A stretch of DNA of 64,000 bases from the NCBI GenBank assembly GCA_020852815.1, contig JADZAN010000001.1:124001-188000 (forward strand), given 5' to 3'. This document shows, piece by piece, positions 3,028 through 64,000 of the stretch (position 1 is its first letter; each line of letters begins with the position of its first letter). The stretch is from Gemmatimonadaceae bacterium. GTDB taxonomy: Bacteria; Gemmatimonadota; Gemmatimonadetes; Gemmatimonadales; Gemmatimonadaceae. A program made the position numbers and the translations under genes. The notes under the pieces were generated by a model. It had not been told where the DNA came from and made no database searches. It was given only the letters and a program-made list of their open reading frames with translations.

Positions 3028-4020
3028 TCAGGCGACGCGGTTGGGAAGCGGTTGGCCGCGCACAAAGGCCCGAATGTTCTCCAGCGCGCACTCACCCATC
3101 GCCACGCGCGAGGCCTCGGTCGCGCTCCCCAGGTGCGGGAGCGCGAAGACATTGGGAAGCATGCGCAGCGGCTCGGGAACGTGCGGTTCACGTTCGTAGA
3201 CGTCGAGCGCTGCCCCGGCGATTGTCCCGTCGGCCAGTGCGGAGACCAGCGCCTCCTCGTGTACCACGTCGCCACGCGAGGTATTCACCAGGAAGGCCGT
3301 GCGCCGCATGCATCGCAGTTGGGGCTCGCCAATGAGGTGATGCGTCTCCGGTGTAGCCGGTGTATGCAGCGAGATCACGTCGCACTGGCCGAGCAGGTCC
3401 TCCAGCGAGGGGACGTACGACGCGCCGCACGCCGCCTCCACGCTGGCGGGTCGCGGATGCCGGGAGTGGTACAGGACGCGCATCCCGAAGCCGTGTGCCG
3501 CGCGGCGCGCCACCGCCTGCCCAATGCGCCCGAATCCCACGATGCCTAACGTGGCGCCGGTGACGCGTGTCCCCAGCAGGTGCGTGGGGCGCCACCCGGT
3601 CCACTCTCCGGCGCGTAGTTCGCCGTCTCCTTCTCGCACGCGGCGCGCGACCGCGAGGATCAGCAGCATCGTGAGATCGGCGGTGTCGTCGGTGAGCACG
3701 CCGGGGGTGTTGGTGACCGCGAGCCCGGCCTGGCGCGCCGCCGTGAGGTCGATGTGGTTCGTCCCCGCCCCGAAGTTGGCCAGGAGCCGCGCGCGCCGCC
3801 GGGCGTCGCCCACGACCTCGGCGGTGAGGCGATCGGTGAGCGTGCACAGCACGATGTCGTGCGCCACGAGCGCGTCGCGCAACTCGTGCCCCGTCAGCTG
3901 CCGATCGGTGGGATTGAGCGTGGCGCCGAATTCGTGAACGAGCGTTGCCTCCACCGGCTCGGGGAGGCGGCGCGTGACGAGGATCGAGGGGTGCGGCGGG
4001 AGGGTCGGGGGCAACGTCAT
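3028..4020 (-). CDS. D-isomer-specific 2-hydroxyacid dehydrogenase (glyoxylate/hydroxypyruvate reductase type)
   Basis: An NAD(P)-dependent reductase of 330 residues, the short form without a C-terminal ACT domain. The Rossmann motif GFGRIGQAVA is near residue 163. The catalytic triad is visible as Arg in NTSRGD (about 248), Glu in the YEREP stretch (about 275) and His in LPHLGSAT (about 295). These features fit glyoxylate or hydroxypyruvate reductases of the GyaR group; phosphoglycerate dehydrogenase activity cannot be excluded. It stands alone, 136 bases upstream of the pepA start and transcribed the same way. Confidence 0.85.
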   Translation of the reverse strand: MTLPPTLPPHPSILVTRRLPEPVEATLVHEFGATLNPTDRQLTGHELRDALVAHDIVLCTLTDRLTAEVVGDARRRARLLANFGAGTNHIDLTAARQAGLAVTNTPGVLTDDTADLTMLLILAVARRVREGDGELRAGEWTGWRPTHLLGTRVTGATLGIVGFGRIGQAVARRAAHGFGMRVLYHSRHPRPASVEAACGASYVPSLEDLLGQCDVISLHTPATPETHHLIGEPQLRCMRRTAFLVNTSRGDVVHEEALVSALADGTIAGAALDVYEREPHVPEPLRMLPNVFALPHLGSATEASRVAMGECALENIRAFVRGQPLPNRVA

Positions 4021-4117
4021 GCGCGCTCACGAGTGGAGCCGGCGCTGGGCCGGGGCTGAGTGGGCGACCGTGGTTGCATCACGTGGGTGCTCCCCGTGGT
4101 GCGGCACCTAACGCGAA

Positions 4118-4143
4118 GGGCGCGCCGCCGTTGCGACGCGCCC
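4118..4143 (-). terminator. Possible hairpin terminator downstream of tRNA-Leu
   Basis: GGGCGCG (4118-4124) pairs with CGCGCCC (4137-4143) around a 12-base loop, about 25 bases after the tRNA 3' end on the minus strand. No T-run follows, so it is a weak candidate for ending tRNA transcription. Confidence 0.35.
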
Positions 4144-4167
4144 CCCACCTGTTGTCGGTCATCACGA

Positions 4168-4251
4168 TGCCCAGGACGAGACTCGAACTCGTATACCCCT
4201 GAGGGCGGGGGATTTTGAGTCCCCTGCGTCTACCAATTCCGCCACCCGGGC
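4168..4251 (-). tRNA. tRNA-Leu (anticodon CAA)
   Basis: On the minus strand the acceptor arms GCCCGGG and CCTGGGC pair with one G-U. The D-arm contains GGCGGAATTGGTAGACGC, a class II tRNA-Leu pattern. The anticodon stem GGGGA/TCCCC encloses the loop CTCAAAA, giving anticodon CAA, which reads TTG. A long variable arm and the T-arm GAGTTCGAGTCTC follow. The discriminator base is A and CCA is not encoded. Confidence 0.96.
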
Positions 4252-4260
4252 CACCGCCGC

Positions 4261-4289: not shown

Positions 4290-4370
4290 CGAGAGTGACG
4301 GCTGCCGTCCGGGGCGTGCCACCGGTGAGCAACGCGCGGTCCGCGAACCGCCGCGCATCACCGAGAGGCG

Positions 4371-6299: not shown

Positions 6300-6300
6300 G

Positions 6301-7138: not shown

Positions 7139-8578
7139 ATGCGAGCGATCATTCCGCTCCTGCTGGGGGTCGCGGCCGTCGGCTGCGCCGCACAGCAGCC
7201 GGCACCGCCCCCCGCCCCTCGCCCGGTCGTTCCCCCCGCCGACAGCACGAGCGCCGTCCTCCCGGGCGCTGGCGCCCTCAGCATCCCGAACGCCGATCCT
7301 TTCCCCAGCACCTACCGCCCGTTCCCGTCGCGCACGACGGTGATCCGCAACGCCACGATCATGACCGCCGCCGGCCCCACGCTGCGCGGCGCCTCGATCC
7401 TGCTGCGCGACGGGAAGGTTGCGGCTGTCGGGAGCACGATCGACGTGCCGTCGGATGCCGTGGTGATTGACGGCACCGGAAAGTTTGTCACGCCGGGGAT
7501 CATCGACACGCACTCGCACCTGGGCGTGTACGCGGCGCCCAGCGTCGAGGCGCTGAGCGATGGCAACGAGATGACCAACCCGTCGACGCCCAACGTCTGG
7601 GCGGAGCACTCGGTCTACGCGCAGGACGCGCAGTTCCCGCGCGCGCTGGCGGCCGGCGTCACCACGATCCAGGTCCTTCCGGGATCGGCGAACCTGATTG
7701 GCGGGCGCAGCGTGGTGCTCAAGGTCGTCCCGTCGCGCACGGTGCGCGGGATGAAGTTCCCGGGCGCGAAGTACGGCCTCAAGCACGCCTGCGGCGAGAA
7801 CCCGAAGCGCGTGTACCAGAGCCGCGGCCCCTCGACGCGCATGGGGAACGTGGCGGGATGGCGCCAGCAGTACCTGCAGGCCGAGCAGTACCGCCGCCGC
7901 TGGGACAAGTGGCTCGCCGACCGCAAGGGAGAACCGCCGGCGCGCGACTTGAACATGGAAACGCTGGCCGAGGTGCTGCGCGGCAACATCTTCGTGCAGT
8001 GGCACTGTTACACGGCCAACGACATGGAAGGCGCCATGGAAGTGGCCGATGAATTCGGCTTCAAGATCCGTTCGTTCCACCATGGCGTGGAGGCCTACAA
8101 GCTCGCAGATATCCTGGCGCAGAAAGGCATCTCGGCCTCGCTGTGGTCCGACTGGGGCGGCTTCAAGATCGAAGCGATGGATGGTGTGCGCGCCAACCTC
8201 GCGCTGGTGCACGCGGCCGGCGCCCGCGCAATCGTCCACTCCGACGACGCCAGCGGGATGCAGCGGCTCAACCAGGACGCCGCGAAGTCGATTGCCGAGG
8301 CGCGCACGTTAGGCATCGACATCCCGGAGGACGAGGCCATCAAGTGGATCACCGCCAACGCCGCGTGGGCGCTGGGCCTCGACGATCGCATCGGGACGCT
8401 GGAGCTGGGAAAGAACGCGGACGTGGTGCTGTGGAGCGGGACGCCGTTCAGCATCTACAGCCGGGCCGAGAAGGTATGGGTGGATGGTGCCATGCTGTTC
8501 GATCGCACGACGCCGTCGGCCTGGTGGCGCACCGATTTCGAACTCGGTTTCGTCCCCGAGATCCCGGGAGGGCGCTGA
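7139..8578 (+). CDS. Exported amidohydrolase (lipoprotein, imidazolonepropionase-like)
   Basis: 479 residues with a short signal peptide ending in a lipobox-like AVGC and a Pro-rich linker. It has the composite beta-sandwich and TIM-barrel of metal-dependent amidohydrolases. The first metal motif DTHSHLG is at about residue 124. Further candidate ligands are His in SFHHGVEAY and Asp in HSDDASG, and the C-terminus has the usual LELGKNADVVLWSG strand. The natural substrate (an amide, peptide or cyclic imide) cannot be read from sequence. It is followed one base later by a paralogue, an arrangement suggesting a heteromeric pair. Confidence 0.85.
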   Translation: MRAIIPLLLGVAAVGCAAQQPAPPPAPRPVVPPADSTSAVLPGAGALSIPNADPFPSTYRPFPSRTTVIRNATIMTAAGPTLRGASILLRDGKVAAVGSTIDVPSDAVVIDGTGKFVTPGIIDTHSHLGVYAAPSVEALSDGNEMTNPSTPNVWAEHSVYAQDAQFPRALAAGVTTIQVLPGSANLIGGRSVVLKVVPSRTVRGMKFPGAKYGLKHACGENPKRVYQSRGPSTRMGNVAGWRQQYLQAEQYRRRWDKWLADRKGEPPARDLNMETLAEVLRGNIFVQWHCYTANDMEGAMEVADEFGFKIRSFHHGVEAYKLADILAQKGISASLWSDWGGFKIEAMDGVRANLALVHAAGARAIVHSDDASGMQRLNQDAAKSIAEARTLGIDIPEDEAIKWITANAAWALGLDDRIGTLELGKNADVVLWSGTPFSIYSRAEKVWVDGAMLFDRTTPSAWWRTDFELGFVPEIPGGR

Positions 8579-8579: not shown

Positions 8580-9866
8580 ATGAGGACCATACTTCGCGCC
8601 ACGGCATGGCTGGCGGGGAGCGCACTCGCGCTCACTCTCCCTCGCATCGTCGCCGCACAGACCATCGCCATCACCGGGGCCAGGGTCTTCCCGGTGAGCG
8701 GCCCTCCAATCGAGGGCGGCACGGTCCTCCTGCGCGATGGAAAGATCGTCGCCGTCGGGAGCAACGTCTCCGTTCCGACCGATGCGCAGCGCATCGACGC
8801 TGCCGGCAAGTGGGTCACGCCCGGCATCTTCAACGCCACCACCTCCCTGGGCCTCACGGAAATCGGCGCCGTGGACGAGACGGTCGACGTGAGCGCGCGC
8901 GGGCAGGGCGACGGATTCGTCCCGTCGCTGCGCGTCTGGGACGGCTTCAATGCCGCCTCGGCGCTGCTGCAGGTGACGCGCAACGACGGGATCACCACCG
9001 CGGGGCTCGTCCCGCGCGGGGGGCTCATCGCCGGACAGGGCGCCGTCGTGGTCCTTGGCGACGGCTCGTTAGGCGATGTCCTGCTCAAGGGGCCGGCCGC
9101 GATGTTCGCCGACATCGCGTCCAAGGGGAACGACCGCGGTGCCTCTCGCGCCGAGGTGTACCAGCGCCTGCGCGCCGTCCTGGCCGAGGCGCGCGACTGG
9201 CCAAAGCGGCGCAACCGGTACGATGCGAACGGGTCGCGTCCGCTCGCGGCGCGCCCGGTGGACCTCGAGGCGCTGCAACCCGTCGTGCGGGGCGAGATCC
9301 CGCTGGCGATCGAGGCCGACCGGGCGAGCGACCTCCTCGTCGCGCTCGACATCGCGCGCGAATTCAACCTGAAGCTCGCGCTGACGTCGGCGTCGGAGGG
9401 GTGGAAGGTGGCGGAGCAGATTGCCGCCGCGAAGGCCTACGTGCTGGTGGGGGCGCTGAACAATATCCCGCGCGACTTCGCCATCCTCGGGGCGCGACAG
9501 GAGAACGCCGCGCTACTGCAGAAGGCGGGGGCGCGCGTGGTGATCGCGGGCGGCGCCGACGCCTTCAACGCGCGCAACGTGAAGTACGAGGCGGGAGTGG
9601 CCGTTGCCTTCGGGATGCCGTGGGACGCGGCGCTCCGCGCGGTGACGCTCACACCGGCTGAGCTGTATGGGGTGGCGGACCGCGTGGGTTCGCTGCAGCC
9701 CGGGCGTGACGCAACGCTGGTGATCTGGAGCGGCGACCCGTTCGAGCTGTACACGCACGCCGAGAAGGTGTACGTGCGCGGCCGCGAGGTGCAACGCCCG
9801 TCGCGGCAGGATGATCTGATGCGTCGCTACAAGACCCTTCCGCCCGACTATCGCGCCCGGCCGTAG
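8580..9866 (+). CDS. Exported amidohydrolase paralogue lacking the HxH metal motif
   Basis: About 428 residues with a Sec signal peptide (AGSALALTL...VAAQ). The fold matches the preceding gene: LLRDGKIVAVGSN near the start and LQPGRDATLVIWSGDPFELY near the end align with it. At the position of the neighbour's DTHSHLG it reads NATTSLGL (about residue 84), so the two metal-binding histidines are gone. It may be a pseudo-enzyme or structural partner of the upstream gene, or use another metal arrangement. The start at 8580 is one base after the upstream stop. Confidence 0.8.
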   Translation: MRTILRATAWLAGSALALTLPRIVAAQTIAITGARVFPVSGPPIEGGTVLLRDGKIVAVGSNVSVPTDAQRIDAAGKWVTPGIFNATTSLGLTEIGAVDETVDVSARGQGDGFVPSLRVWDGFNAASALLQVTRNDGITTAGLVPRGGLIAGQGAVVVLGDGSLGDVLLKGPAAMFADIASKGNDRGASRAEVYQRLRAVLAEARDWPKRRNRYDANGSRPLAARPVDLEALQPVVRGEIPLAIEADRASDLLVALDIAREFNLKLALTSASEGWKVAEQIAAAKAYVLVGALNNIPRDFAILGARQENAALLQKAGARVVIAGGADAFNARNVKYEAGVAVAFGMPWDAALRAVTLTPAELYGVADRVGSLQPGRDATLVIWSGDPFELYTHAEKVYVRGREVQRPSRQDDLMRRYKTLPPDYRARP

Positions 9867-9915: not shown

Positions 9916-10332
9916 TCAGCTGGCGGGCGGCGGGGCGTCGGGTGCCGGGCGCGCCGCGGCATCCGGTGCGGCGGCGTGATCGTCTGTCGCCGCGGGTGGA
10001 ACGCCCTCCGCGTCAGCGGGCGGGGCATCGCCGACGGGGACGTCCTCGCGCGTGACGTTGCGCCCGGTGAGCGCGCGCATGCGATCCTCCAGCTCGGCGA
10101 GTTCCTCCTCGCGCGAGCGCACGGCATCCACCAGGCGGGCAATCATGTGGTCGTTGGGCGTCTCCTTCCCCGTGCGGGAACGATAGACGGCGTAGCCTAA
10201 CGACTGGGCGGCACGGTCGACGAACTGCCGGGCGCGGAAGACCTCGAGGCGCAGCTTTCCCTCATCCAGTGCGCCCTGCGCCGCCTTGCCGGCGCGATCG
10301 AGTTCGGTGCGCAACTTGTTCCAGATCGCCAT
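9916..10332 (-). CDS. Conserved-looking hypothetical protein, helical with acidic Ala/Pro tail
   Basis: 138 residues with no recognised family. The N-terminal half (MAIWNKLRTELDRAGKAAQ onward) is amphipathic helix. A central RSREEELAELEDRMRAL stretch could be coiled coil. The last 45 residues are Ala/Pro/Asp-rich and probably disordered. There is no signal peptide or membrane segment. The ATG at 10332 is chosen because coding character begins there; the open frame upstream is Arg-rich and unlikely. Confidence 0.65.
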   Translation of the reverse strand: MAIWNKLRTELDRAGKAAQGALDEGKLRLEVFRARQFVDRAAQSLGYAVYRSRTGKETPNDHMIARLVDAVRSREEELAELEDRMRALTGRNVTREDVPVGDAPPADAEGVPPAATDDHAAAPDAAARPAPDAPPPAS

Positions 10333-15232: not shown

Positions 15233-16978
15233 TCACGATGCAAACCCGCAGACGTCACACGCGCCGCAACGAGTCGTGGGCCCGGGATCGCCGAAATATC
15301 GAAGCAGGACCAGTCGGCGGCAACGCGTGGTCTCGACGAGTCGCGCCACCTGCGCGTGCCGCCACAGGTCGCGCGCCTGACGCGTGCCGTGCCGGGAGGC
15401 GAGGCCCTGCAACTCGTCTGGCGAGGGGCGGCGCAGCAGCCGCCATGGCGCGTGTGCCGGGAGCCAGAGGGCGAGCTGCCCTTCCTCCCACCGCGCGAGG
15501 AGTCGCGCCCCGTCACCATCGGGGGCGTAGGCGTCGAGGGCACGGCGCGACATCACCAGGGGCACTCCGTCGCCCACGGAGTCCGAGGCGGCCGGCGCGA
15601 GCGCCGCGCCCTTCGTGCTGCCTGACGAGTGAGGCGGGGCGAGCACGATCTGCTGGAGCGCTTCGGCGTCCGCGTCGCGCGCGGCGGCGAGTGCGGCGAT
15701 GCGCGCCGCTGTGGCGAGGAGGCGCAACTCGCCCGCGGCGAGGCCGGGCGCCAGCGCGCCTGACTCGGTCAGGAGTCGGAGCGCGGCGCCCACGTCGTGA
15801 AGGGAGGCCTGGACGGCGTGCGCGAGGCGTGCGAGCGGCTGGTCGCGCAGGGCGGCGAGCGCGGTCACGGCGCGGCCGTCGCCCAGGAGGTCGACCACGC
15901 GCTGCATGAGGAGCGCCGAGACGCGCGCGTTGGCGATGCGGGCGCGCGCTCGCGCCAGGTCGTTAGGCGCGACGAGGACGTGGCAGTCGGCCGTGGCGCC
16001 GTCGCGACCGCCGCGCCCTGCCTCCTGGTAGTACGCTTCGAGCGTGAGCGGCGGCTCGGCGTGTGCCACGAGTCGCACGTCGGGCTTGTCGACGCCCATC
16101 CCGAAGGCGTTGGTGGCGACGATGATGGCGAGGCGGTTGTCGAGGAAGCGATCCTGCAGGCGGGCGCGCTCGGCGGGGGGGAGCCCGGCATGGAACGGGG
16201 CGACGGCGACGCCCTGGCGGCGAATGGCGCTGGCCAGCTGCTCGGTGGCGCGCCGGGTCGCGGCGTACATCACGGCCGCCCCCGGTGCGCTGCGGGCCAT
16301 CTGGAGGAGTGTCGTTAGGCGTTCGTGCTCGCTCGCGACACGGCGCACGTGCAGCCGGAGGTTGGCGCGATCGAAGCCGCCCGTGATGTGCAACGGGTCG
16401 CGAAGTTGCAGGCGCTGCACGATGTCGCGGGCCGTGCGTGGGGTGGCGGTGGCGGTGAGGGCGATGGTGGGCGGACTGCCGATATCGGCCCGCAGTGCGC
16501 CCAAGGCGAGGTATGCCGGGCGGAACGACTCTCCCCACTCGGAGATGCAATGCGCCTCGTCCACCGCCAGGAGGCGTGGAGCCACACGCGCCAGCCGCGC
16601 GCGCGTGCGCGGGGAGGCGAGCGCCTCTGGCGCGAGGTAGAGGAGGTCGAGCGCCTGGCCGTCGAGGGCGTCCCATGCATCCTCGCGCTGGGCCAGGCTC
16701 ACGGCACCGCTGACCTGCGCCGCGCGGACACCCTTGTGACGCAAGGCGTCGACCTGGTCCTTCATGAGCGCGACGAGCGGCGAGACCACGACGGCAGGCG
16801 ACAGGCCGCAGGCGGCCGGCAGCTGGTAGCAGAGCGACTTTCCGCCGCCGGTGGGGAGGATGACGAGGACGTCGCGCCCGTTGCACACGGCATCGAAGGC
16901 GTTGCGTTGCGCCGGTCGGAGCGCGGAGATGCCGAAGCGCGGGAGCCAGGTCTCCGGCGAGACGAGGGTGTGCGTCAT
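15233..16978 (-). CDS. recQ: RecQ-family ATP-dependent DNA helicase
   Basis: An SF2 3'-5' helicase of about 581 residues. Walker [11 protein letters not shown] is near residue 46, [11 protein letters not shown] near 138, motif [10 protein letters not shown] near 170, and [11 protein letters not shown] with [12 protein letters not shown] in domain 2. The zinc-binding cluster is placed unusually at the very C-terminus ([12 protein letters not shown] to CGACDVCGF). There is a winged-helix-like region but no HRDC domain, so it is a short RecQ. The ATG at 16978 ([11 protein letters not shown]) is preferred to the upstream frame start. Confidence 0.92.
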
Positions 16979-17117
16979 GCCGCACACGCTTGCACCGTGC
17001 GCGCCCCTTACCATCACCAGAATCACATCATATCATGCCAATTCATTGCATCGCGACGCGGCGGAGGGCGAGGAGCCCGGGGCGCGCGATGCCGGCGCCA
17101 CCGCGGCGCTCCACAGC

Positions 17118-23696: not shown

Positions 23697-24050
23697 TCAC
23701 GGCGCCGGCGGGAGGCCTAACGAGCTGGCCTCGGCGTCGGGGATGTCGAGCACCATGCGGAGCATGGCTGTGGAGAAGACCTTTCCCTGGGCGTCGGTCT
23801 TGAGCGACAGCGTCCCGCCGCCGTCCAGGGCGCCGTGCAGGAGGAAGTTGAGCGCCTTGAGGTTGGGGAGCTCGTAGCGTTGCACGCCGCCGGTGATGAC
23901 GCCGCGGAAGTGCGCGGCGACGCGCTCCAGCGTGAGCTCGCGCGCGAGCAACGGGTACCACTCCGGCCGGAGCGCGATGACGCCGACGTTGGCGGTGTCG
24001 CCCTTGTCGCCAGAGCGGGCGTGGGCGAGGTCGAGCAGGCGGACCTTCAT
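23697..24050 (-). CDS. AtuA-associated C-terminal-type protein (ferredoxin-fold-like)
   Basis: 117 residues beginning [18 protein letters not shown]. This SGDKGD(T)ANVG stretch is typical of the small domain that accompanies AtuA proteins, either fused or as a separate gene. The ATG overlaps the stop of the AtuA gene by four bases, supporting a complex. Its biochemical role is unknown. The open frame upstream of 24050 is out-of-frame AtuA sequence. Confidence 0.75.
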
Positions 24051-50379: not shown

Positions 50380-51682
50380 CGATCTCTCCCAGCAGCCGCT
50401 CCGGGAGCTCGGCATTGGCGGCGATGAGCGCGATGACCAGCGCCAGCAGCGACACGCGTTCGACGTCTTCCTCCACGAAGACGCCGCGCTTGGCGCGATT
50501 GGTCAGGTTCACGACGCCGATCAGTTCATCCCGGTAGATGAGCGGGAACGAGATGAACGACCCGGTGGTGAGGTACTGGTCGCGAAGGAGCGGGTGGCGG
50601 TCGGCTTCCGCGGCATCCTGCACCAGCAGCGGTTCGCGCGACATGGCGACGATGCCCGCGACACCCTTGCCGTTGGGAATGCGCTGGCCGAGGACGATGT
50701 TGGGCGCCAGCCCGCGCGCTGCGGCGAGGTAGAGCGTATCCGGCTCGGGGGCGCGCAGCATGAGCGAGCAGCGTTGCGCCTGCATGTCATCGCCCACCAG
50801 GGCGAGGAGTCCGTCCACCAGGGCGCGCGGCGCATCCTTGCTCGTGTTGTCGATGCGCAGCGACCGTTCGATGAGGTACAGCGTGCGCGTCTTCTGTCGC
50901 AGCGATTCGTTGCGGCGGTGCAGCTCGATGTGCGCCTGCTCCAGCTGTGCGACGGCCGCCGTGAGCTGGTGCTCCAGCGACGACGACTTGCGCGTTGCGC
51001 GCCGCCCCTCTTCCTGCGCCGCGGCGATGTCGCGCTCCAGGTGCAAGAGGCGTTCGGCGTCGGCGGCGTTGACCTGCGAGGCGGCGCCGCGCGCCTTCCC
51101 CAGCTCGCCCTCGAGCACGCCGAGCTTGCGGATGTACTCGCCGTGCACGCGCTGCGTCACGTCCTCGAGCGTGCGCACCGCTTCGTCACGCGCCTCGCGC
51201 TCGCCAAAGCGCGCGTACGCCAGCTCGAACAGGGCGACGCACGGGGCGAAGCGTTCGCTGGTTCGCGTGCCGAACATGCGCCGCTGTTCGTACAGTCCCA
51301 GCATCCCTGACAGTTCGCCGTCTGTCGTTAGGCCGCGCAGCGAGAGGATGCCGCCGTCGGCAAACGGGGTGAGGCCGAGGAGCCGGGCGTACTCGACCGA
51401 CCGGTCGCCGAGGTCGACGAACTGCCCGCCGTTTGCCACCATGGCGCGCGCGGCCGGGGGGAGGTGGTCGATGGTGGTATCGACGGTGGCGCGGACCACG
51501 CGCTCCTGCACGGGGGTCAGCCGCTCACGCAGCATTTCCCGGCGCCCTTCGTAGCGGAACACGGAGACGAGCGCCGACCGATCGGCCTCGGCGAGCGCCT
51601 CACCCAGCGCCACGAGCGCCGCGTCCAGGTCGGGGGCGACACTCAGCGCGTGCGCCAGCGAGGGAAGGCTCTTGATCGACAT
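50369..51682 (-). CDS. GAF-domain signalling protein with central coiled coil
   Basis: About 437 residues. An N-terminal GAF-like region (about 1-170) is followed by a long coiled coil (about 170-270, EAVRTLEDVTQRV to LRQKTRTLYLIERSL). The C-terminal GAF domain (about 275-430) has GKGVAGIVAMSREPLLVQD and ELIGVVNLTN. No kinase, cyclase or phosphodiesterase output is attached, so it would signal through a partner. It overlaps trpD. ATG 51682 is chosen; ATG 51700 is possible. Confidence 0.78.
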   Translation of the reverse strand: MSIKSLPSLAHALSVAPDLDAALVALGEALAEADRSALVSVFRYEGRREMLRERLTPVQERVVRATVDTTIDHLPPAARAMVANGGQFVDLGDRSVEYARLLGLTPFADGGILSLRGLTTDGELSGMLGLYEQRRMFGTRTSERFAPCVALFELAYARFGEREARDEAVRTLEDVTQRVHGEYIRKLGVLEGELGKARGAASQVNAADAERLLHLERDIAAAQEEGRRATRKSSSLEHQLTAAVAQLEQAHIELHRRNESLRQKTRTLYLIERSLRIDNTSKDAPRALVDGLLALVGDDMQAQRCSLMLRAPEPDTLYLAAARGLAPNIVLGQRIPNGKGVAGIVAMSREPLLVQDAAEADRHPLLRDQYLTTGSFISFPLIYRDELIGVVNLTNRAKRGVFVEEDVERVSLLALVIALIAANAELPERLLGEIGDE

Positions 51683-52619: not shown

Positions 52620-54025
52620 GTCTCCGCGACACCCTCGCCGCCCTGGCCATCGCACTCGGCTCGGCCTGCGAAGGAGGCGATAGCGCGTCCACGCGCGCGG
52701 CCCTCGCCGCCCCAGCGCAAGTCACCCGCGTCAACGACCAGATCACCGCGTCGCGGCGCACCGCGATCGTCGACGCGGTGGCACGCGTGGCGCCGGCGGT
52801 CGTGACGGTCCAGACGGAGACGGTCGAGCGCGTCCCGGTCGACGTCTTCGAGCAGTTCTTCGGCGGGCGGTCCGGGCAGCAGGTGCAACCGGGCCTCGGC
52901 TCGGGCTTCATCATTCGCCCCGACGGCATCATCGTCACCAACGCCCACGTCGTCGCCGGCGCCAGCCGCATCTCGGTGATGCTGCGCGACGGCGCCACCT
53001 ACGCCGGAACGCTCATCGGCGCCGACGAGACCAACGACCTCGCGGTGCTTCGCATCAACGCGCGGAACCTACCCGTTGTCTCGTTAGGCTCCTCGGACCA
53101 GCTCCTCATCGGCGAGTGGGCCATCGCCATCGGCAATCCCTTCGGCTTCGTGATCGGCAACAGCGAACCGAGCGTGACCGCGGGCGTCGTGAGCGCCACC
53201 GGGCGCAACCTGCTGGGGCGCAGCGACGGCAGCGGCGCATACGTCGGGATGATCCAGACCGACGCCTCGATCAACCCGGGCAACTCCGGCGGCCCGCTGG
53301 TCAACGCGGTGGGCGAGGTGATTGGCGTGAACACCTCGATCTACACACCGAGCGGCGGCTCCATCGGCCTCGGCTTCGCCATCCCGATCAACCGCGCGCG
53401 CCGCATCGTCGACGACCTCCTCGATCACGGGAGCGTACGCCGCCCCTGGATCGGCGAGAAGCTGCGCACGGGAACCGGTGACAACCCGCGCGACATCGTC
53501 ACCGCCGGCGTCATCGTGCAGTCGGTGATTCCGGGCTCGCCCGCCGCCAAAGCCGGCTTGCAGCCGGGCGACCAGATCCTGCGCGCGCGTGGCCGGCCGC
53601 TGCGCAACGTCTTCGACTGGGAAGCCGAGCGACTCGACATGCGCGTCGGCGAGTCGGTCCCGCTGGTGGTGCGTCGCGGCGGGCGCGAGACCACGATCAC
53701 CGTGACGGTCGCCGACCTCCCCGACGTCTCGGCGCCGCGCGTGACCGTGTTACGCGAACTCGAACTCGTCTCGCTCACCCCGGCCATCCGCGCCGAGCGC
53801 GGACTGCGGAGCGCCAAGGGCGCCCTGGTGGTGCGCTCGAGCGATCGCATCAAGACCGAGATCGGGCTGCAGGAGGGCGACCTCATCGTCCAGATCAACC
53901 GCACGTCGATCGAGCAGGCCGCTGATGTCTCGCGCGCCTTCGACAACTACGGCGGGCGCAGCGGACTCCGCCTCGTCTTCGAGCGGCGCGGCTATTTCTA
54001 CACCACCGACTTCGTGATCCAGTGA
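52616..54025 (+). CDS. HtrA/DegP-type serine protease with two PDZ domains
   Basis: 469 residues. The short N-terminal signal ends in a lipobox-like GSAC (Cys near 18), so it is probably a lipoprotein in the periplasm. The catalytic triad is His in VTNAHVVAG (about 110), Asp in TNDLAVLR (about 141) and Ser in NPGNSGGPL (about 222). Two PDZ domains follow (GSPAAKAGLQPGDQIL and a second ending GLQEGDLIVQINR). It degrades or refolds misfolded envelope proteins. It overlaps truA and purB by four bases each. Confidence 0.93.
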   Translation: MSLRDTLAALAIALGSACEGGDSASTRAALAAPAQVTRVNDQITASRRTAIVDAVARVAPAVVTVQTETVERVPVDVFEQFFGGRSGQQVQPGLGSGFIIRPDGIIVTNAHVVAGASRISVMLRDGATYAGTLIGADETNDLAVLRINARNLPVVSLGSSDQLLIGEWAIAIGNPFGFVIGNSEPSVTAGVVSATGRNLLGRSDGSGAYVGMIQTDASINPGNSGGPLVNAVGEVIGVNTSIYTPSGGSIGLGFAIPINRARRIVDDLLDHGSVRRPWIGEKLRTGTGDNPRDIVTAGVIVQSVIPGSPAAKAGLQPGDQILRARGRPLRNVFDWEAERLDMRVGESVPLVVRRGGRETTITVTVADLPDVSAPRVTVLRELELVSLTPAIRAERGLRSAKGALVVRSSDRIKTEIGLQEGDLIVQINRTSIEQAADVSRAFDNYGGRSGLRLVFERRGYFYTTDFVIQ

Positions 54026-55455
54026 CCGCGCACGCGCAGTACTCCACACCGCTGGCGGAGCGCTACGCGTCCCGCGACATGCTCGCGCTCTGGTCGCCGC
54101 AGCGCCGGTACGGGCTCTGGCGCCGGCTCTGGCTGGCACTCGCCGAGGCCGAGCAGTCGTTAGGCGTGCCGATTCCCGACGAGGCCATCGCGCAGATGCG
54201 TGACCACCTCGACGACATCGACTTCGCCGCCGTGGCCGCGTACGAGAAGCGCTTCCGTCACGACGTGATGGCGCATGTGCACGCCTTTGGCGACGCGGCG
54301 CCGGCCGCGCGCGGCTTCATCCACTACGGCGCGACGTCGTGCTACGTCACCGATAACGCCGAGTTGATCCTCATGCGCGAGGCACTCGGCCTCCTGCGCG
54401 CCAAGGTCGTGGACGCGCTGCGCGAACTGGCCACCTTTGCCCGCGGGTGGCGCGCCGAGCCCACGCTGGGCTATACGCACCTGCAGCCGGCGCAGCTCAC
54501 CACCGTGGGCAAGCGCGCCACGCTCTGGATGCAGGACCTGGTCCTCGACCTGGCCGACCTCGATCACCGCGTCGCCACCCTCCCCTTCCGCGGCGTGAAG
54601 GGGACCACGGGGACGCAGGCGTCGTTCCTCGACATCCTGGGCGGCGACCACGCCAAGGTCCGCGAACTCGACCGCCGCGTCTGCGCCGCGATGGACTTCT
54701 CGGCGTCGATCCCCGTGAGCGGGCAGACCTACACGAGGAAGATCGACGCGCAGGTGCTGGGCGTCGTCGGCGGCATCGCCGCCAGCGCGGCCAAGTTCGC
54801 CTCCGATCTGCGCATGCTGCAGGCCTTTGGGGAAATCGAGGAGCCGTTCGAGAAGGAGCAGATCGGCTCGTCGGCCATGGCGTACAAGCGCAACCCGATG
54901 CGCTGCGAACGCATCAACTCGCTCGCCCGGTTCGTCGCCTCGCTGGAGCCCAACGCCAACCAGACGCACAGCGTCCAGTACTTCGAGCGCACGCTCGACG
55001 ACTCCGCCAACCGCCGGCTCGTCATCCCCGAGAGCTTCCTCGCCACCGACGCGATCCTCGTGCTGCTGGCCAACGTCGCCGGGGGACTCGAGGTGCATCC
55101 GGCGCGCATCGCGGCGCGCGTGCGTGACGAACTCCCGTTCATGGCGACGGAAGCGCTCATCGTGCGCGCGGTGCGCGCCGGGCGCTCGCGCCAGGACGCG
55201 CACGAGGTCATTCGCCGTCACTCCATCGCCGCCGCCCGCGCCATGAAGGACGACGGCGTGGCGAACGACATGCTCGACCGCCTGGCAGGCGATGCGGAGT
55301 TTGGCGTCGCCCTCGATGACATCCGTGCGGCCCTCGATGCCTCGCGCTTCGTGGGCCGCTCCCCGCAACAGGTCGACGACTTCCTCGCCGAAGTCGTCGA
55401 TCCCATCCTCGCCGGCGCCGACGCCCCCGTCGCGCGAGAGGAGGTCCGCGTATGA
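54022..55455 (+). CDS. purB: Adenylosuccinate lyase
   Basis: 477 residues, a fumarase/aspartase superfamily tetramer that acts twice in purine synthesis. The signature loop [15 protein letters not shown] lies near residue 287, with [11 protein letters not shown] near 150 and [13 protein letters not shown] near 97. The GTG start overlaps the protease stop (GTGA). It is followed immediately by purC. Confidence 0.96.
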
Positions 55456-56381
55456 TCGGCGCCGTGATCGCCACCACTTCGCTCCCGCTCCCCGCGCATC
55501 GCCGCGGCAAGGTGCGTGACGTGTACGAACTGGGCGACGACCGATTGCTGCTCGTCGCCACCGACCGCGTCTCGGCGTTCGACGTCGTCATGCGCGAGAC
55601 CGTCCCCTTCAAGGGGATCGTCCTCACGCAGCTCACCGCGTGGTGGCTCAAGCAGCTGGAACCGATCGTCCCGCACCACATGCTCGGCACCGCGATCGAC
55701 CCCCTCGTGGATGAGTACCCCGCGTTAGGCCCGCATCGCGAGGTGTTGCGCGGGCGCGTGATGCTCTCCCGGCGCACCGACGTCTTCCCGGTCGAGTGCG
55801 TGATGCGCGGCTTCGTTGCCGGCTCGGCGTGGAAGGAATACCAGCAATCGGGGACGCTGGCTGGCGAGCGCCTCCCGGAGGGGCTCCGCGAGAGTTCGCG
55901 CCTCGACCCGCCGATCTTCTCGCCCGCCACAAAGGCCGAGAGCGGGCACGACGAGAACATCACGATACCGCGGATGGCCGAGATCGTCGGCGCCGCGGAA
56001 GCGAAGGAACTCGAGCGCCTGTCGCGCGCCATCTACGACTTCGCCTGCCGCACCGCGGAGCCGCGCGGGATCATGATCGCCGACACCAAGTTCGAGTTCG
56101 GGCGCGTGGGCGGAGAGACCATCCTCATCGACGAGGTGCTGACGCCCGACAGTTCGCGCTTCTGGCCGGCCGACCAGTATGCGCCGGGTCGCTCGCAGCC
56201 TAGTTACGACAAGCAGCCGTTGCGCGACTACCTCGACGCCGAGCGACGCGCCGGCCGCTGGAACGGGAACTCGCCCCCGCCGGACCTCCCCGAGGAGGTC
56301 GTGGCCGCGACGAGCGCGCGCTATCTCGACGCCTTCCGCCGCATCACCGGCGCCTCCCTCGACGTGTCCAGCCTCCCGTGA
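55452..56381 (+). CDS. purC: Phosphoribosylaminoimidazole-succinocarboxamide synthase
   Basis: 309 residues, the long form of SAICAR synthetase. [26 protein letters not shown] at the N-terminus begins the ATP-grasp-like fold; [17 protein letters not shown] and ADTKFEFGR, ending in [14 protein letters not shown], are diagnostic. The ATG overlaps the purB stop (ATGA). Confidence 0.96.
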
Positions 56382-57033: not shown

Positions 57034-58011
57034 GTGGCACGCCCGCAACCGCGCCGCGCGGTCGTCCTGCTGCCGAACGGGTTCACGCTCGCGAACCTCT
57101 TCTTCGGCGTCTTCGCGATCGTCGCCGCCTCGCGCGGCGATTTCTCGCGCGCGGTCTCCTACATCGTCTTCGGCGGCGTGGCCGATGCGCTCGACGGGCG
57201 CGTGGCGCGCGCCACCAACACCGGGAGCCGCTTCGGCGAGGAACTCGACTCGCTCGTCGACGCCATCTCGTTCGGCCTCGCGCCCACGATGATCATCTAC
57301 TTCGCCGTCTTCAACCAGGCGGGGTGGGACTGGATCTTCTGCTTCATGTTCACGATGTGCGCGGTGATCCGCCTCGCGCGCTTCAACGTCGAGCAGGCCG
57401 GGCGCAAGAAGACACACTTCCACGGCCTCCCCTCCCCCGCCGCCGGCGGGACGCTCGCCACGTACTACTGGTTCAGCCAGACCGACCTGTACACGCAGAC
57501 GATGATCGCCGACCTCCCATGGCATCAGATGCTGCGCTTCATCATGCTCGGGCTGTCATTCCTGATGATCAGCAACGTGCAGTACGCCGCGATGCCGACC
57601 ATCGGCTACCGGAGCGTCCGCCAGGTGCTCGGCTCGCTCCTCGTGATCGGGACGATCGTCGGCGTCATCTTCCTCCCCAAGTCGTTCTTCTTCCCCGCCG
57701 CCATGGCGTACGTCCTGTACGGCCTGGTGGCGACCGTCTTCATCGGCCTTCTCGACCGCCTCCCGGGCAACGGCGACGACTACGAGGAGTATGCGGCTGA
57801 CGGTGATATGAACGATCGCGCGCTCGTCGTCGCCGACGATGAGGCGCGCGACGAGGCGCGCGACGACGGACGCGGCGATGGTCGCCGCCGACGCCGGCGC
57901 AGGCGGCCGCGCGGTCCGCGCCCCTCCGGGCCGCCTAACGCCTCCGGAGGCGGCACTGCTCCGGGGACAACCCAGCATGCTCCACCCACCCCTCCCACCT
58001 CCGAGGACTGA
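57034..58011 (+). CDS. pssA: CDP-diacylglycerol--serine O-phosphatidyltransferase
   Basis: 325 residues with about eight membrane segments. The CDP-alcohol phosphotransferase motif DALDGRVARATNTGS...GEELDSLVD (DG-x2-AR-x8-G-x3-D-x3-D) lies near 50-76. The C-terminal tail after about residue 250 is disordered: an Asp/Glu/Arg-rich part, then eight Arg in a row, then a Pro/Gly/Thr tail. It supplies phosphatidylserine to psd. The GTG start is 2 bases after psd. Confidence 0.93.
   Translation: MARPQPRRAVVLLPNGFTLANLFFGVFAIVAASRGDFSRAVSYIVFGGVADALDGRVARATNTGSRFGEELDSLVDAISFGLAPTMIIYFAVFNQAGWDWIFCFMFTMCAVIRLARFNVEQAGRKKTHFHGLPSPAAGGTLATYYWFSQTDLYTQTMIADLPWHQMLRFIMLGLSFLMISNVQYAAMPTIGYRSVRQVLGSLLVIGTIVGVIFLPKSFFFPAAMAYVLYGLVATVFIGLLDRLPGNGDDYEEYAADGDMNDRALVVADDEARDEARDDGRGDGRRRRRRRRPRGPRPSGPPNASGGGTAPGTTQHAPPTPPTSED

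Positions 58012-58270: not shown

Positions 58271-58274
<4 letters not shown>
58017..58274 (+). CDS. purS: Phosphoribosylformylglycinamidine synthase subunit PurS
   Basis: 85 residues. VHIVPRRGILDPQGKAV and the VGRHLVLDVD strand match PurS, which bridges PurL and PurQ in the three-subunit FGAM synthase. It overlaps purQ by four bases. Confidence 0.94.
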
Positions 58275-58963
<689 letters not shown>

Positions 58964-59322: not shown

Positions 59323-61613
59323 TGAGCGCAACACCACGCGCCGGCGACCCGGCCATCACGCCTGCGCTCGTCGCCGAGCACGGGCTCACGCCTGACGAAT
59401 ACGAGCGGCTCGTGCGCCTGTTGGGGCGCACACCGACGTTCACCGAGCTTGGCGTCGTCAGCGCCCTCTGGAACGAGCACTGCTCGTACAAGCATTCCAA
59501 GCCGGTGCTGCGCACGCTCCCCACGCAGGCGCCATGGGTGCTGCAGGGGCCGGGGGAGAACGCCGGCGTCATCGCCGTGGGTGACGGTCTCGCCGTCGCG
59601 TTCAAGATCGAGTCGCACAACCACCCGTCGGCAGTGGAACCCTACCAGGGGGCAGCGACCGGCGTCGGCGGCATCCTGCGCGACGTCTTCACGATGGGAG
59701 CCCGTCCCATCGCGATGCTCAACTCGCTCCGCTTTGGCTCGTTGGACTCGGCGCGCGTGCGGTGGCTCTTTGCCGGCGTCGTCAAGGGCGTGGGCGACTA
59801 CGGCAACTGCGTGGGCGTGCCAACCGTGGCGGGCGAGGTCGTCTTCGACCCGGCCTATGAGGGGAATCCCCTCGTCAACGCGATGTGCGTCGGCCTCCTG
59901 CGCGAAGACGAGTTGATTCGCGCCAAGGCCGAGGGAGTCGGCAACCCGATCATCGCCGTCGGTGCGCGCACCGGGCGCGATGGAATCCATGGCGCCTCGT
60001 TCGCGTCGGAAGACCTCACCGAGGCCAGCGAGGCCAAGCGCCCGCGCGTGCAGGTGGGCGATCCCTTCACCGAGAAGCTCCTCCTCGAGGCCTCGCTCGA
60101 ACTGATCAAGAGCGGGCACATCGTCGCGATCCAGGACATGGGGGCGGCCGGGCTCACCAGCTCCTCCGCCGAGATGGCGGCGCGCGGCGACGTCGGCGTC
60201 ACCATCGACACCAGCAGGGTCCCGGTGCGCGAAACGCACATGACGCCGTACGAGATCCTCCTCTCCGAATCGCAGGAGCGCATGCTCGTCGTGGCGAAGA
60301 AGGGGCACGAGCAGCACGTCAAGGCGATCCTCGAGAAGTGGGACCTGACCGCGGAAGTCATCGGTGAGGTGATCAGCGAGCCGGTGTATCGCGTGACCGA
60401 GGGCGAGCATGTCGTCGCCGAGTTTCCCGGGTCGAAGCTGGTGACCGAGTGCCCGGTGTACTACCCGGATTCGCGCGAGAGCGACGCCATCGTGGCGCTA
60501 CGTTCACGCGATCCCAACGCCGTCACCCCACGCCCGGAGGAAGCGGACGCGGCGTGGACGCTGGTGCAGCTCCTCACGAGCCCAACGATCGCCAGCAAGA
60601 CGTGGGTCTATCGCCAGTACGACTCCACGGTACGCGCCAGCACGGTGGTCGGCCCCGGTGCGTCCGACGCGGCGGTGGTCCGGCTCCCCGGCACCAACAA
60701 GGCGATTGCCGTCAAGACCGACTGCAACGGGCGTTATGTCTACCTCGAGCCGCGCACCGGCGGGCGCGCCGCGGTGGCGGAGGCGGCGCGCAACGTGGCG
60801 TGCACCGGCGCCCGCCCGATGGCCATCACCAACTGCCTCAACTTCGGGAATCCCCGCAAGCCCGAGGTGTTCTTCCAGTTCAAGGAAGCCGTCGGCGGCA
60901 TGGGCGACGCCTGCACCGCGTTAGGCACGCCGGTCACCGGCGGCAACGTCTCGTTCTACAACGAGAGCCCCATCTCGGCCGTCTTCCCGACGCCCACCGT
61001 CGGCATGGTGGGACTCATCGAGAACCTCGACTGGGTCACGCGCAGCGCCTTCGTCGGTGAGGGTGACACCATCGTCCTGCTGGGCAACTGCACGGATGAG
61101 TTGGGCGCCAGCGAATACCTCTCGCGCATCCACGGGCTCACGATCGGCACTCCGCCGCAGCTTGACCTGGCCGGCGAGAAGCGACTCATCGACGCGCTCC
61201 TCGAGGCCATCCGCAGCGGCGCCGTCGCATCGGCGCACGACTGCTCCGACGGAGGGCTCGCGGTCGCCCTCGCCGAGTGCGCGATGATGGAGCGCGACGC
61301 AGCCATCGGCGTCGATGTCGACCTCACCGTGTGGGGACAGCTCCGCTCGCGGGCCCTCCTGTTCGGCGAGGCACACGGACGCGTGATCGTCTCCACCTCA
61401 TCCCCGGAAGCCGTGCTGGCCATCGCACAGCGACATGACGTCCCGTCGCGCGTGATTGGGCGCGTGGGAACGAGGAACGGTGCATTCCGGATACGTTACT
61501 CGGATGGCGCGATCGACGTCCCCGTCGCGGCGCTCGCCGACGCGTATCACGACGCGATCCCGCGCATCATGACGCGGGTCGCCTCGGCCACCGCCGACTC
61601 GCAGGAGGGCTGA
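59322..61613 (+). CDS. purL: Phosphoribosylformylglycinamidine synthase subunit PurL
   Basis: 763 residues, the small-PurL type that works with PurS and Pur[14 protein letters not shown] near 45, [20 protein letters not shown] near 95, and in the second half [17 protein letters not shown] are diagnostic of the duplicated AIRS fold. ATG 59322 begins MSATPRAGD; the frame upstream overlaps the zinc-ribbon gene and is not coding. Confidence 0.96.
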
Positions 61614-61616
61614 GCG

Positions 61617-63011
61617 ATGTGCGGAATCTTTGGAGTATATGGCGCCGAGCACGCGGCCGAGGTCACGCACCTTGGCCTCTACTCGTTGCAACATCGCGGG
61701 CAGGAATCGGCGGGGATCGTTGCCGTCGACGGCGACTCGGTTGCGCGCGGGACGCGCAAGATGGGGCTCGTGGGCGAGGGACTCTCGGCGCGCGAGATGG
61801 AATCGCTCGTTGGGCGCATTGCCATCGGTCACACGCGCTACAGCACCGCCGGCTCGTCCACCATCGAGAACGCACAGCCGGTGCTCGCGCGCTTCAAGGG
61901 CGGACACATCGCCCTGGCGCATAACGGCAACCTCACCAACGCCGTGGAGGTACGGGCCAAGCTCGAGGACTCGGGCTCGATCTTCGCCTCCACGATGGAT
62001 TCCGAGGTCATCGTGCATCGCCTGGCGCGCGCGGCGCAGGCGCTCCCCGAGCACATGCTGGCCGAGGCGCTGCGCGGTATCGAGGGGGCCTACTGCCTCG
62101 TGGTGATCATCGGGCAGACACTCCTGGCCGCGCGCGATCCGCGCGGTTGGCGTCCGCTCGTGGTCGGGACGCTCAACGGTGGCTACGTCTTCGCGTCGGA
62201 GACGTGCGCGCTCGATATCGTCGGGGCGCAGCTCGTGCGCGAGGTGAGGCCGGGCGAGATCATCGCCGTGGATGGTGACGGGCTGCGCTCGTTCCAGGCC
62301 GAGCCGCCGCGTCAGCTGCAACGCTGCGTCTTCGAGCACGTCTACTTTGCCCGCCCCGATTCGTACGTCTTTGGCGGGTCCGTCGACCGGGCGCGGCGCG
62401 CCCTCGGGCAACGGCTCGCCGAGGAGCAGCCGGCGCCCACCGCCGACCTGGTCTTCGCCGTCCCCGATTCCTCCAACGCCGCGGCGCTCGGCTTCGCCGA
62501 ACGCTCCGGCCTCCCGCTCGAGCTCGCGCTCATCCGCAACCATTACATCGGGCGCACCTTCATCCAGCCCACGCAGTCCGGGCGCGACCACAAGGTGAAG
62601 GTCAAGTTCAACCCGGTGCGCGAGGTCCTGGCCGGGAAGAGTGTGGTGATGGTCGACGACTCCATCGTGCGCGGCACCACCACGCGCGGCCTCGTTGCCC
62701 TCGTGCGTGGCGCCGGCGCCCGCGAAGTCCACATGCGCGTCTCTTCCCCGCCGATCATCGGCCCCTGCTACTACGGCATCGATACGCCTAACAAGGAAGA
62801 GCTGATCGCCGCGAACCACTCGGTGGACGAGATCGCACGCATGATCGGCGTCGACTCGCTCGGCTACCTCTCGCTCGACGGGATGCTCGCCGCGGTCCCC
62901 TGCGGGCCCGAGGGATTCTGCCACGCCTGCTTCTCCGGCGAGTATCCCACGTCCGCCCCGACCAATCCGGTGAAGCTTCGCTACGGCCGTCGCGAACCCG
63001 CCGGCGTGTGA
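61617..63011 (+). CDS. purF: Amidophosphoribosyltransferase
   Basis: 464 residues. The N-terminal Cys nucleophile follows Met (MCGIFGVYG), so there is no long propeptide. SLQHRGQESAGI, the PRPP loop VMVDDSIVRGTTT near 350 and the cysteines of an Fe-S cluster (CVFEHVYF, GPCYYGID, CHACFSG) are present. This is the committed step of purine synthesis, made here by the last pur gene of the run. Confidence 0.96.
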   Translation: MCGIFGVYGAEHAAEVTHLGLYSLQHRGQESAGIVAVDGDSVARGTRKMGLVGEGLSAREMESLVGRIAIGHTRYSTAGSSTIENAQPVLARFKGGHIALAHNGNLTNAVEVRAKLEDSGSIFASTMDSEVIVHRLARAAQALPEHMLAEALRGIEGAYCLVVIIGQTLLAARDPRGWRPLVVGTLNGGYVFASETCALDIVGAQLVREVRPGEIIAVDGDGLRSFQAEPPRQLQRCVFEHVYFARPDSYVFGGSVDRARRALGQRLAEEQPAPTADLVFAVPDSSNAAALGFAERSGLPLELALIRNHYIGRTFIQPTQSGRDHKVKVKFNPVREVLAGKSVVMVDDSIVRGTTTRGLVALVRGAGAREVHMRVSSPPIIGPCYYGIDTPNKEELIAANHSVDEIARMIGVDSLGYLSLDGMLAAVPCGPEGFCHACFSGEYPTSAPTNPVKLRYGRREPAGV

Positions 63012-63092
63012 CACGATGGCCAGAGGGGTAACGAAGTAGCCCCCGCGGGACGCTCTTGGCCGCTCGCCAGGACCGCGTCCCGCACCTCGCAT

Positions 63093-63120
63093 TCTCCCGT
63101 CCCCCGTCTCCCGTCCCCCG
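63093..63120. repeat. Two perfect 14-bp repeats upstream of ppdK
   Basis: TCTCCCGTCCCCCG occurs twice in tandem in a pyrimidine-rich stretch ending just before the ppdK ATG at 63131. On the plus strand it leaves no Shine-Dalgarno sequence for ppdK. Confidence 0.85.
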
Positions 63121-63130
63121 TCCGCCCTCC

Positions 63131-64000
63131 ATGCCCCACGTCTACTTCTTCGGCAACGGCAAGGCCGACGGCACGCGCGACATGAAGGCCGTGTTAGGCG
63201 GCAAGGGGGCCAACCTCGCCGAGATGACCAATCTCGGTGTCCCCGTCCCGCCGGGCTTCACCATCGACTGCGCGACGTGCATGGAGTTCCTTGCAGCCGC
63301 GACACGCGCGGCGGGACTCGAGGAGGAAGTGGCGGCCAACCTCACGAAGCTCGAGGCAGCCACCGGCCGCGGGTTCGGCGACGCCCGCAATCCGCTGTTG
63401 GTCTCGGTGCGCTCCGGCGCCGCGGTGTCGATGCCGGGAATGATGGAGACGATCCTGAACCTCGGCCTCAACGACCGCACGGTGCAAGGGCTGGCACAGC
63501 AGTCGGGGAATCCGCGATTCGCCTTCGACTCGTATCGCCGCTTCCTGCAGATGTACGGCGACGTGGTGCTGGGCGTCCCCGCGCACGACTTCGAGCACCT
63601 GCTCAAGGCCAAGCGCCTCATGAGTGGCGCGGCGTCGGATGCGGAGCTGGACGAAGGCGCGTTGCGCAACCTCGTCGAGGAGTACAAGTCGCTCATTCGC
63701 AACACCACCGGGCGCGACTTCCCGATGGACGTGCAGGCGCAACTGTGGGGGGCCATCGAGGCTGTCTGGAAGTCATGGACGCTCAAGAAGGCGGTTGACT
63801 ACCGCAAGGTGAACGGCATCGCGGAGGACGCCGGCACCGCCGTGAACGTCGTCGCCATGGTCTACGGCAACATGGGCGACGACTCGGGTACCGGCGTGGC
63901 ATTCACGCGCGACCCGTCGACGGGCGAGCGCACGTTCTACGGCGAGTGCCTCATCAATGCGCAAGGCGAGGACGTCGTGGCCGGCATCCGCACGCCGCTC
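63131..64000 (+). CDS. ppdK: Pyruvate, phosphate dikinase (N-terminal part; continues beyond window)
   Basis: The first 290 residues of the nucleotide-binding domain. VYFFGNGKADGTRDMKAVLG, GGKGANLAEMTNLGVPVPPGF and VSVRSGAAVSMPGMMETILN are diagnostic of PPDK (interconversion of pyruvate and PEP with PPi). The catalytic His and TIM-barrel domains lie past the right edge. It starts at ATG 63131 after a 14-bp repeat. Confidence 0.95.
   Translation, partial: MPHVYFFGNGKADGTRDMKAVLGGKGANLAEMTNLGVPVPPGFTIDCATCMEFLAAATRAAGLEEEVAANLTKLEAATGRGFGDARNPLLVSVRSGAAVSMPGMMETILNLGLNDRTVQGLAQQSGNPRFAFDSYRRFLQMYGDVVLGVPAHDFEHLLKAKRLMSGAASDAELDEGALRNLVEEYKSLIRNTTGRDFPMDVQAQLWGAIEAVWKSWTLKKAVDYRKVNGIAEDAGTAVNVVAMVYGNMGDDSGTGVAFTRDPSTGERTFYGECLINAQGEDVVAGIRTPL

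Follow-up and report, generated by a model that had tools for sequence, protein, structure and literature searches.

A short non-palindromic word dispersed through genomes of the Gemmatimonadaceae, possibly read as plain sequence by a DNA-processing machine

Why should a single heptamer occur thirty times in 64 kb of GC-rich bacterial DNA? The stretch in question, called the window below, comprises 64,000 nucleotides of a Gemmatimonadaceae bacterium (contig JADZAN010000001.1, positions 124,001 to 188,000). It belongs to the Gemmatimonadota, most of whose known members are uncultured; a similarity search with PurF likewise puts it close to genomes of the Gemmatimonadaceae. The word is GTTAGGC, or GCCTAAC on the opposite strand, and its abundance was pointed out in an earlier note made from the letters alone. 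All 30 positions given there match copies that we find, compared with 1.9 expected and a maximum of 6 in 100 dinucleotide shuffles. The frames are also as claimed, with 24 copies read as Leu-Gly, three as Pro-Asn, two as Leu-Thr and one intergenic. The remark that TTA is otherwise very rare holds as well, since 24 of the 26 TTA codons in our gene calls for the window fall inside the word.

The excess extends over the genome of the window (G000), where GTTAGGC occurs 1,084 times on one strand and 1,107 on the other, giving 2,191 in 5,378,811 bp; the same letters read backwards, as a control, occur 559 times. A C precedes 26 of the 30 window copies, and the fuller form of the word is therefore CGTTAGGC, which accounts for 1,965 of the 2,191. 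The word is followed mainly by G or A, with C and T scarce in G000, and T scarce in Gemmatirosa kalamazoonensis KBS708 (G018), a cultured carrier of the word. For codon-aware analysis genes were called with a home-made finder in a sample of 462,521 bp of G000. This contains 184 copies, 152 within coding sequences, 21 in the 50,370 bp between genes and 11 across gene ends or overlaps. Under within-gene codon shuffling the mean in coding sequences is 8.9 (maximum 16 in 60 shuffles), so that the word stays far above the codon-aware null by which the earlier note proposed to judge it, and it ranks first among all 7-mers. Its density is 4.2 per 10 kb in intergenic and 3.7 per 10 kb in genic DNA. 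The word thus exceeds both codon and composition nulls, within and between genes and on both strands, and on the shuffled and codon-aware nulls we reject chance or codon bias as its source.

Under the same codon null the common one-base neighbours GTTGGGC (55 against 60 expected), GTTCGGC, GTCAGGC and GTGAGGC are near expectation in the coding sequences of G000. Variants at position 7 are raised (GTTAGGG, 25 against 7.4; GTTAGGT, 7 against 1.8), and GTTTGGC (43 against 24.2) and GATAGGC (27 against 17.2) mildly so. Some rarer variants lie below expectation (CTTAGGC, 0 against 6.4; GTTAGCC, 0 against 9.9; GTTAAGC, 1 against 8.1; GTAAGGC, 4 against 15.3), in part because the codon null redistributes the word's own TTA codons. 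In G023, from the densest genus (L082, L084, L264 and L265), GTTGGGC occurs 50 times in coding sequences with 13.0 expected, possibly a second spelling.

Is it a DNA word or a codon pair that is kept? In the coding sequences of G000 all the tolerated frames are used, giving 110 Leu-Gly, 30 Pro-Asn, 6 Leu-Thr and 6 Val-Arg copies. Moreover TTA-GGC spells 110 of 753 Leu-Gly pairs that follow G, and none of the 501 that follow A, C or T. These results show that the DNA word is kept, not the codon pair. The view of the earlier note that selection or mutation acts on the DNA word across frames and strands is thus borne out in four frames, on both strands and in intergenic copies. Where a synonymous choice would create the word, it is made for Leu-Gly and Pro-Asn respectively in 110/1060 and 30/161 cases in G000, 127/1054 and 56/156 in G018, and 83/234 and 14/36 in G023, and in 0/117 and 0/19 in the poor genomes G024 and G138 combined. 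In G018 the word holds 127 of 133 TTA codons and spells 56 of the 129 Pro-Asn pairs that follow G.

The note had left selection and mutation as alternatives. Pooled over six genome pairs, the word is retained at 88 of 187 orthologous sites, compared with 234 of 881 for six matched control words. The pooled p = 1e-7 is too good, because shared sites are counted from both genomes and three of the pairs overlap (genus g22); halving all counts gives 2e-4. Taken singly, the excess is clear and significant in two pairs, G000-G002 (18/39 against 50/293) and G023-G141 (38/49 against 56/117). Among 99 non-conserved sites the counterpart is two or more bases away from the word in 75, and often it is another spelling of Leu-Gly; within g22 the one-step neighbour GTTGGGC often stands there. 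Selection thus gains some support, and mutation bias alone does not. Close spacing is rarer than at random, with 4 gaps below 150 bp against 10 in G000, and 12 against 25 in G018. Over all distances the coefficient of variation of the gaps is 0.83 in G000, below the null range, and 0.95 in G018, not below it.

The word is all-or-none by genus. Among 179 genomes of the Gemmatimonadaceae, CGTTAGGC occurs between 223 and 4,469 times in 26, which belong to 11 of the 35 genera, and at most 70 times in the other 153; we call these high genomes, or carriers, and low genomes respectively. Genera are uniform except for g22, with 3 copies in G138 and 1,586 to 3,754 in the five others. Counts of the word reach 5,785 in one relative of 4.3 Mb, and are between 7 and 100 in most other family genomes. 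Outside the family the trait is found in a few members of sister families. In a sample of 297 genomes of the phylum that includes the family, genus g47 of family f2 has 181 to 779 copies in five genomes (181 in G054), G285 has 361, G262 has 172 and G041 has 168; all the remaining genomes outside the family have fewer than 100. The check on relatives that the earlier note proposed therefore finds the word enriched rather than absent in them, in some genera only. In a tree of rpoC, with some branches weakly supported, the carriers are scattered: g1, g6, g12 and g29 together, G018 and G032 around low G017 and G184, g21 next to low G016, g22 next to low G138, and G035, G128 and the f2 genome G055 at other places. 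This scatter points to the word having been gained or lost more than once. No comparable alternative word was found under the codon null in the low genomes G017, G138 and G024. In scans of 20 kb with a Markov null the word has z = 21.5 (18 copies) in L003, and the best 7-mer in L029, an unenriched locus of the Gemmatimonadota, has z = 13.5 (6 copies).

The word is also present on mobile DNA. In G018, the one carrier examined, there are 6.55 copies per 10 kb on the chromosome, 9.33 and 9.5 on two megaplasmids of 1.1 and 1.04 Mb (sampled over 60 and 40 kb), and 9.33 on a 15-kb satellite element. The mobile elements are richer than the chromosome with p = 0.002, on raw densities unadjusted for composition or coding. 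The 15-kb element has matches to integrase, primase and excisionase, and resembles a satellite phage. The 20,952-bp record of this high-copy element (L085, G018:C1) looks like a circle of 14,997 bp, with an exact repeat of its first 5,003 bases from offset 14,997 within the 20,000 bases compared.

IMG/VR was scanned for close pairs of the word, and after dropping loci shorter than 4 kb 291 of at least 321 loci were kept. With the bait copies discounted, 12 viral loci of at least 4 kb among the matches listed pass p < 1e-4 for enrichment. Nine of these have unrelated flanks (mean identity 0.27 to 0.34), and in these nine the bare word reaches 27 copies in 11.8 kb. The three set aside, L596, L555 and L529, have related flanks or another dominant word. 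With the reversed word as control 4 of 207 loci are enriched among the matches listed, all with related flanks (0.42 to 0.82). When the test was repeated on a subset of 217 word loci, the control not being thinned alike, the number passing was again 12. A scan for phage genes in three of the nine pieces gave terminase matches in each, and portal and head-protein matches in two. By tetranucleotide profile L524, L328, L600 and, marginally, L445 are nearest to carrier Gemmatimonadota, and a search for hosts by protein similarity gave distant relatives only. In L445 and L401 the word runs for long distances in an orientation against gene direction, which is unconvincing once coding opportunities are counted.

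What might read the word? We suggest, with a probability of about 0.36, that selection keeps CGTTAGGC as a recognition word and that a DNA-processing machine reads it as plain sequence, in the manner of Chi or as a mark of self. A plain-sequence reading is indicated by the methylome of a carrier, from which the word is missing, and by the failure to match the C5-methylase family PF00145 in G018. A Chi-like mark is the best explanation that we have, with an uptake signal close behind it, and a smaller share of the probability goes to causes that we cannot name. In such a scheme the word would tell a sequence-specific machine that the DNA is licensed or self. DNA with the word every 0.7 to 6 kb would be spared or channelled to repair, and word-free DNA would be handled as foreign or broken. 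The machine would not be RecBCD or AddAB in most carriers, though the window's genus has RecBCD. Phages and plasmids would then benefit from having the word, which would account for densities in those seen that match or exceed that of the chromosome. Once a lineage had lost the machine, drift to ordinary codons would erase the word.

A number of observations weigh against this proposal. No enzyme is known to read the word. The hosts of the viral contigs are unproven, and tetranucleotide profiles place L401, L326 and L327 nearest to loci of Acidobacteria or Terriglobia. In four of the six pairs a rise in conservation is not clear: it is slight in three, and in G022-G070 the word is conserved less than the controls (2/9 against 22/58). 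In G000 the genes with low GC content at third codon positions have about half the word occupancy, 0.052 in the lowest fifth against 0.125 in the highest, as if newer DNA lacked the word; in G018 such genes are not poorer (0.149 and 0.135). Chi is usually strand-skewed, and no clear skew is seen for the word: on the 5.31-Mb chromosome of G018, in 20 stretches taken at even spacing, it stands 141 times on the plus and 121 times on the minus strand, both orientations are present in every stretch, and orientation follows the gene strand. Finally, of the 26 high genomes 3 have RecC, all of the window's own genus g1, against 45 of the 153 low genomes of the family (p = 0.06, assuming that the 288 genomes of the order searched include all 179 of the family).

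The last point bears on whether the machine could be the usual partner of Chi. The word resembles Chi in being a crisp non-palindromic octamer with which some viral contigs are packed, and Chi is reportedly found in lambdoid phages. A recC-recB-recD operon in G000 (L136:1493-10247, G000:C4; recB slightly below the curated cut-off) was encouraging at first, but the distribution over genomes ruled against RecBCD or AddAB. Both are patchy over the family and neither is found in most word-rich genera, whereas many low relatives have RecBCD. Strong AddAB-type matches to PF12705 occur in low G138, G033, G031, G011 and G090 and in the high f2 genome G285; no strong match was obtained in the 18 high family genomes searched. 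RecC or a strong AddB is present in 2 of 16 high and 12 of 28 low genomes of at least 90% completeness (p = 0.049), a weak inverse link in a tally made by hand with no correction for phylogeny, from which the less complete G138 (low, AddB) and G285 (high, AddB) were excluded. The weak PF12705 matches in high genomes look by eye like Cas4-Cas1-like or phage-type proteins and not like helicase-nucleases, except for RecB in g1. The distribution of these enzymes makes it hardly likely that the word acts in repair or DNA-end processing through RecBCD or AddAB. Elsewhere in G000 (L651:4844-12004, G000:C28) we noted a cluster that by eye resembles CRISPR-associated genes, with a fused Cas4-Cas1-like protein.

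The strongest competitor of the Chi-like mark is a DNA uptake signal, like the DNA uptake sequence (DUS) of Neisseriaceae or the uptake signal sequence (USS) of Pasteurellaceae. A competence receptor would prefer DNA containing CGTTAGGC, and transformation and recombination would spread the word by molecular drive. We regard this as possible, if still doubtful. Like DUS and USS, the word is short, non-palindromic and in strong genome-wide excess on both strands, with hundreds to thousands of copies spaced at about one per 0.7 to 6 kb within and between genes. It is switched on and off by genus, and DUS likewise occurs in only part of the Neisseriaceae (PMC3630211). ComEC (PF03772) is found in 48 of 52 genomes, including 21 of 23 carriers, yet it is equally common in low genomes (27 of 29; no other competence gene was sought) and so speaks neither for uptake nor against it. 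Sense copies in G018 trend to the 3' end of genes (p = 0.014), which recalls the gene-end bias described for Pasteurellaceae uptake sequences (PMC2346458), but in G000 the trend falls short of significance, and antisense copies have none. In L085 one inverted pair of the word (3990-4055) flanks a strong, terminator-like GC hairpin between genes. Because conservation is weaker when the genome pairs are taken singly, and because sense copies in G018 lean to gene ends, we put the Chi-like reading slightly lower and uptake slightly higher. Against uptake, the satellite and megaplasmids of this one genome are richer than its chromosome rather than depleted; Neisseria mobile elements stand out by an atypical DUS distribution (PMC7371117). 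Word-dense phages would not be expected, and the three low genomes analysed by codon null have no dialect of the word. The word, of about 8 to 9 bp, also occurs in a different phylum from DUS and USS.

A particular form of recognition would be a modification-free mark of self, by which a cell-wide machine separates self from foreign or broken DNA, and which phages, satellites and plasmids mimic by saturation. Taken by itself we consider this rather unlikely. If it were true, the identity with an integron site described next would mean that captured cassettes arrive premarked as self.

The cassette-borne attC sites of integrons have the core consensus GTTRRRY, and in two low relatives from f2 the attC arrays end in CGTTAGGC as 3' core, the identical octamer. 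The arrays of cassettes are seen in L274 and L275 (G271:C5 and G256:C2), with near-uniform attC ends (GCTTAAGCGCGATCCGTTAGGC). The word might then be the core site G^TTAGGC, enriched through the integron integrase or through DNA-capture machinery tuned to attC. The same word in two families asks for something shared, and an integron integrase is above cut-off in 36 of 60 relatives. Within the family it is found in 11 of 12 high and 16 of 24 low genomes (p = 0.22) and so does not track the trait, and G054 has generic-level recombinase matches only (best E 1.5e-24). Other cores are not raised in the coding sequences of G000 (GTTAGAC 0 against 3.9, and GTTGGGC as above), whereas the non-core GTTAGGG is; tolerance of GTTRRRY is thus lacking in G000, and in G023 GTTGGGC is raised. 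The arrays of the relatives have paired R' and R'' cores 50 to 150 bp apart. Window copies have no second core, no two of them lying within attC distance (none within 170 bp), and low genomes with attC arrays hold just tens of copies. We therefore judge a link to integrons improbable, and record the identity of the word with the attC core of relatives as unexplained.

The earlier note had also suggested methylation in the manner of HIP1 (highly iterated palindrome 1) of cyanobacteria. The word would be the target of an orphan methyltransferase, made or kept by methylation-linked repair. Like HIP1 it is a dispersed octamer, patchy over a clade, and cyanobacterial HIPs track methyltransferases (PMC4390886). 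However, CGTTAGGC differs from its own reverse complement. The published methylome of G. kalamazoonensis KBS708 contains RGATCY, ATGCAC and CCAGN7TCA, all with N6-methyladenine (PMC3974934), and no methylated motif like the word, despite 5,148 copies in this genome (5-methylcytosine itself was not assayed). PF00145 is matched in 6 of the 23 high genomes searched, G000 among them, and in the other 17, which include G018, no match was found. The suggestion is therefore not upheld, and we consider it very improbable.

Chromosome organisation was a further idea of the note. Like the FtsK-orienting polar sequences (KOPS) and architecture-imparting octamers, the word is short and dispersed over the genome. 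A KOPS-type motif should have strong leading-strand skew towards the terminus, and no strong strand or replichore skew is seen on the G018 chromosome, so this candidate is not supported. Least probable is an artefact of biased mutation, codon-pair preference or translation, for although most window copies are in the sense Leu-Gly frame and GTTGGGC is a frequent one-step counterpart in g22, antisense and intergenic copies are enriched as well, TTA-GGC is confined to sites after G, and mutation bias alone is unlikely because most non-conserved counterparts are two or more bases off and the common one-base neighbours are near expectation.

Only a few dispersed genome words are under strong selection (DUS and USS, Chi, HIP1 and KOPS). 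This one comes from another phylum, does not appear among the methylated motifs measured in a carrier, and in most carriers has no RecBCD or AddAB partner. We found no description of the word in the literature searched; papers bearing the string, among the matches listed, are by title on unrelated subjects. Because it switches on and off between sister genera, the reader can be mapped by comparison, and in G. kalamazoonensis, cultured and sequenced, the question is directly testable. The word could also mark host range for phages and plasmids of the Gemmatimonadota.

The copies in the window are collected in Table 1. The open reading frame (ORF) 61617-63011 is one that we take to encode PurF.

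Table 1. Copies of GTTAGGC in the 64-kb window, with the reading of each copy and the ORF in which it lies
Positions	Strand	Reading	Base before, where noted	ORF and strand
3544..3550	-	Leu-Gly		3028-4020 -
8308..8314	+	Leu-Gly		7139-8578 +
9068..9074	+	Leu-Gly		8580-9866 +
10195..10201	-	Leu-Gly		9916-10332 -
15962..15968	+	antisense Pro-Asn		15233-16978 -
16314..16320	+	antisense Leu-Thr		15233-16978 -
17165..17171	+	Leu-Gly		17046-18785 +
17957..17963	+	Leu-Gly		17046-18785 +
19915..19921	-	Leu-Gly		18865-21351 -
21815..21821	-	Leu-Gly	A	21389-22060 -
23715..23721	-	Leu-Gly		23697-24050 -
24911..24917	-	Leu-Gly		24047-25408 -
28837..28843	-	Leu-Gly		28369-30063 -
30762..30768	-	Leu-Gly		30060-31151 -
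32440..32446	-	Leu-Gly		32266-33525 -
33121..33127	-	Leu-Gly		32266-33525 -
35188..35194	-	Leu-Gly		35032-36813 -
35827..35833	-	Leu-Gly		35032-36813 -
38483..38489	-	intergenic		
42608..42614	-	Leu-Gly	T	42353-43876 -
47619..47625	-	Leu-Gly		46998-47702 -
51327..51333	+	antisense Leu-Thr		50369-51682 -
53083..53089	+	Leu-Gly		52616-54025 +
54159..54165	+	Leu-Gly		54022-55455 +
55724..55730	+	Leu-Gly		55452-56381 +
57933..57939	-	antisense Pro-Asn		57034-58011 +
58342..58348	+	Leu-Gly		58271-58963 +
60920..60926	+	Leu-Gly		59322-61613 +
62786..62792	-	antisense Pro-Asn	T	61617-63011 +
63193..63199	+	Leu-Gly	T	63131-64000 +

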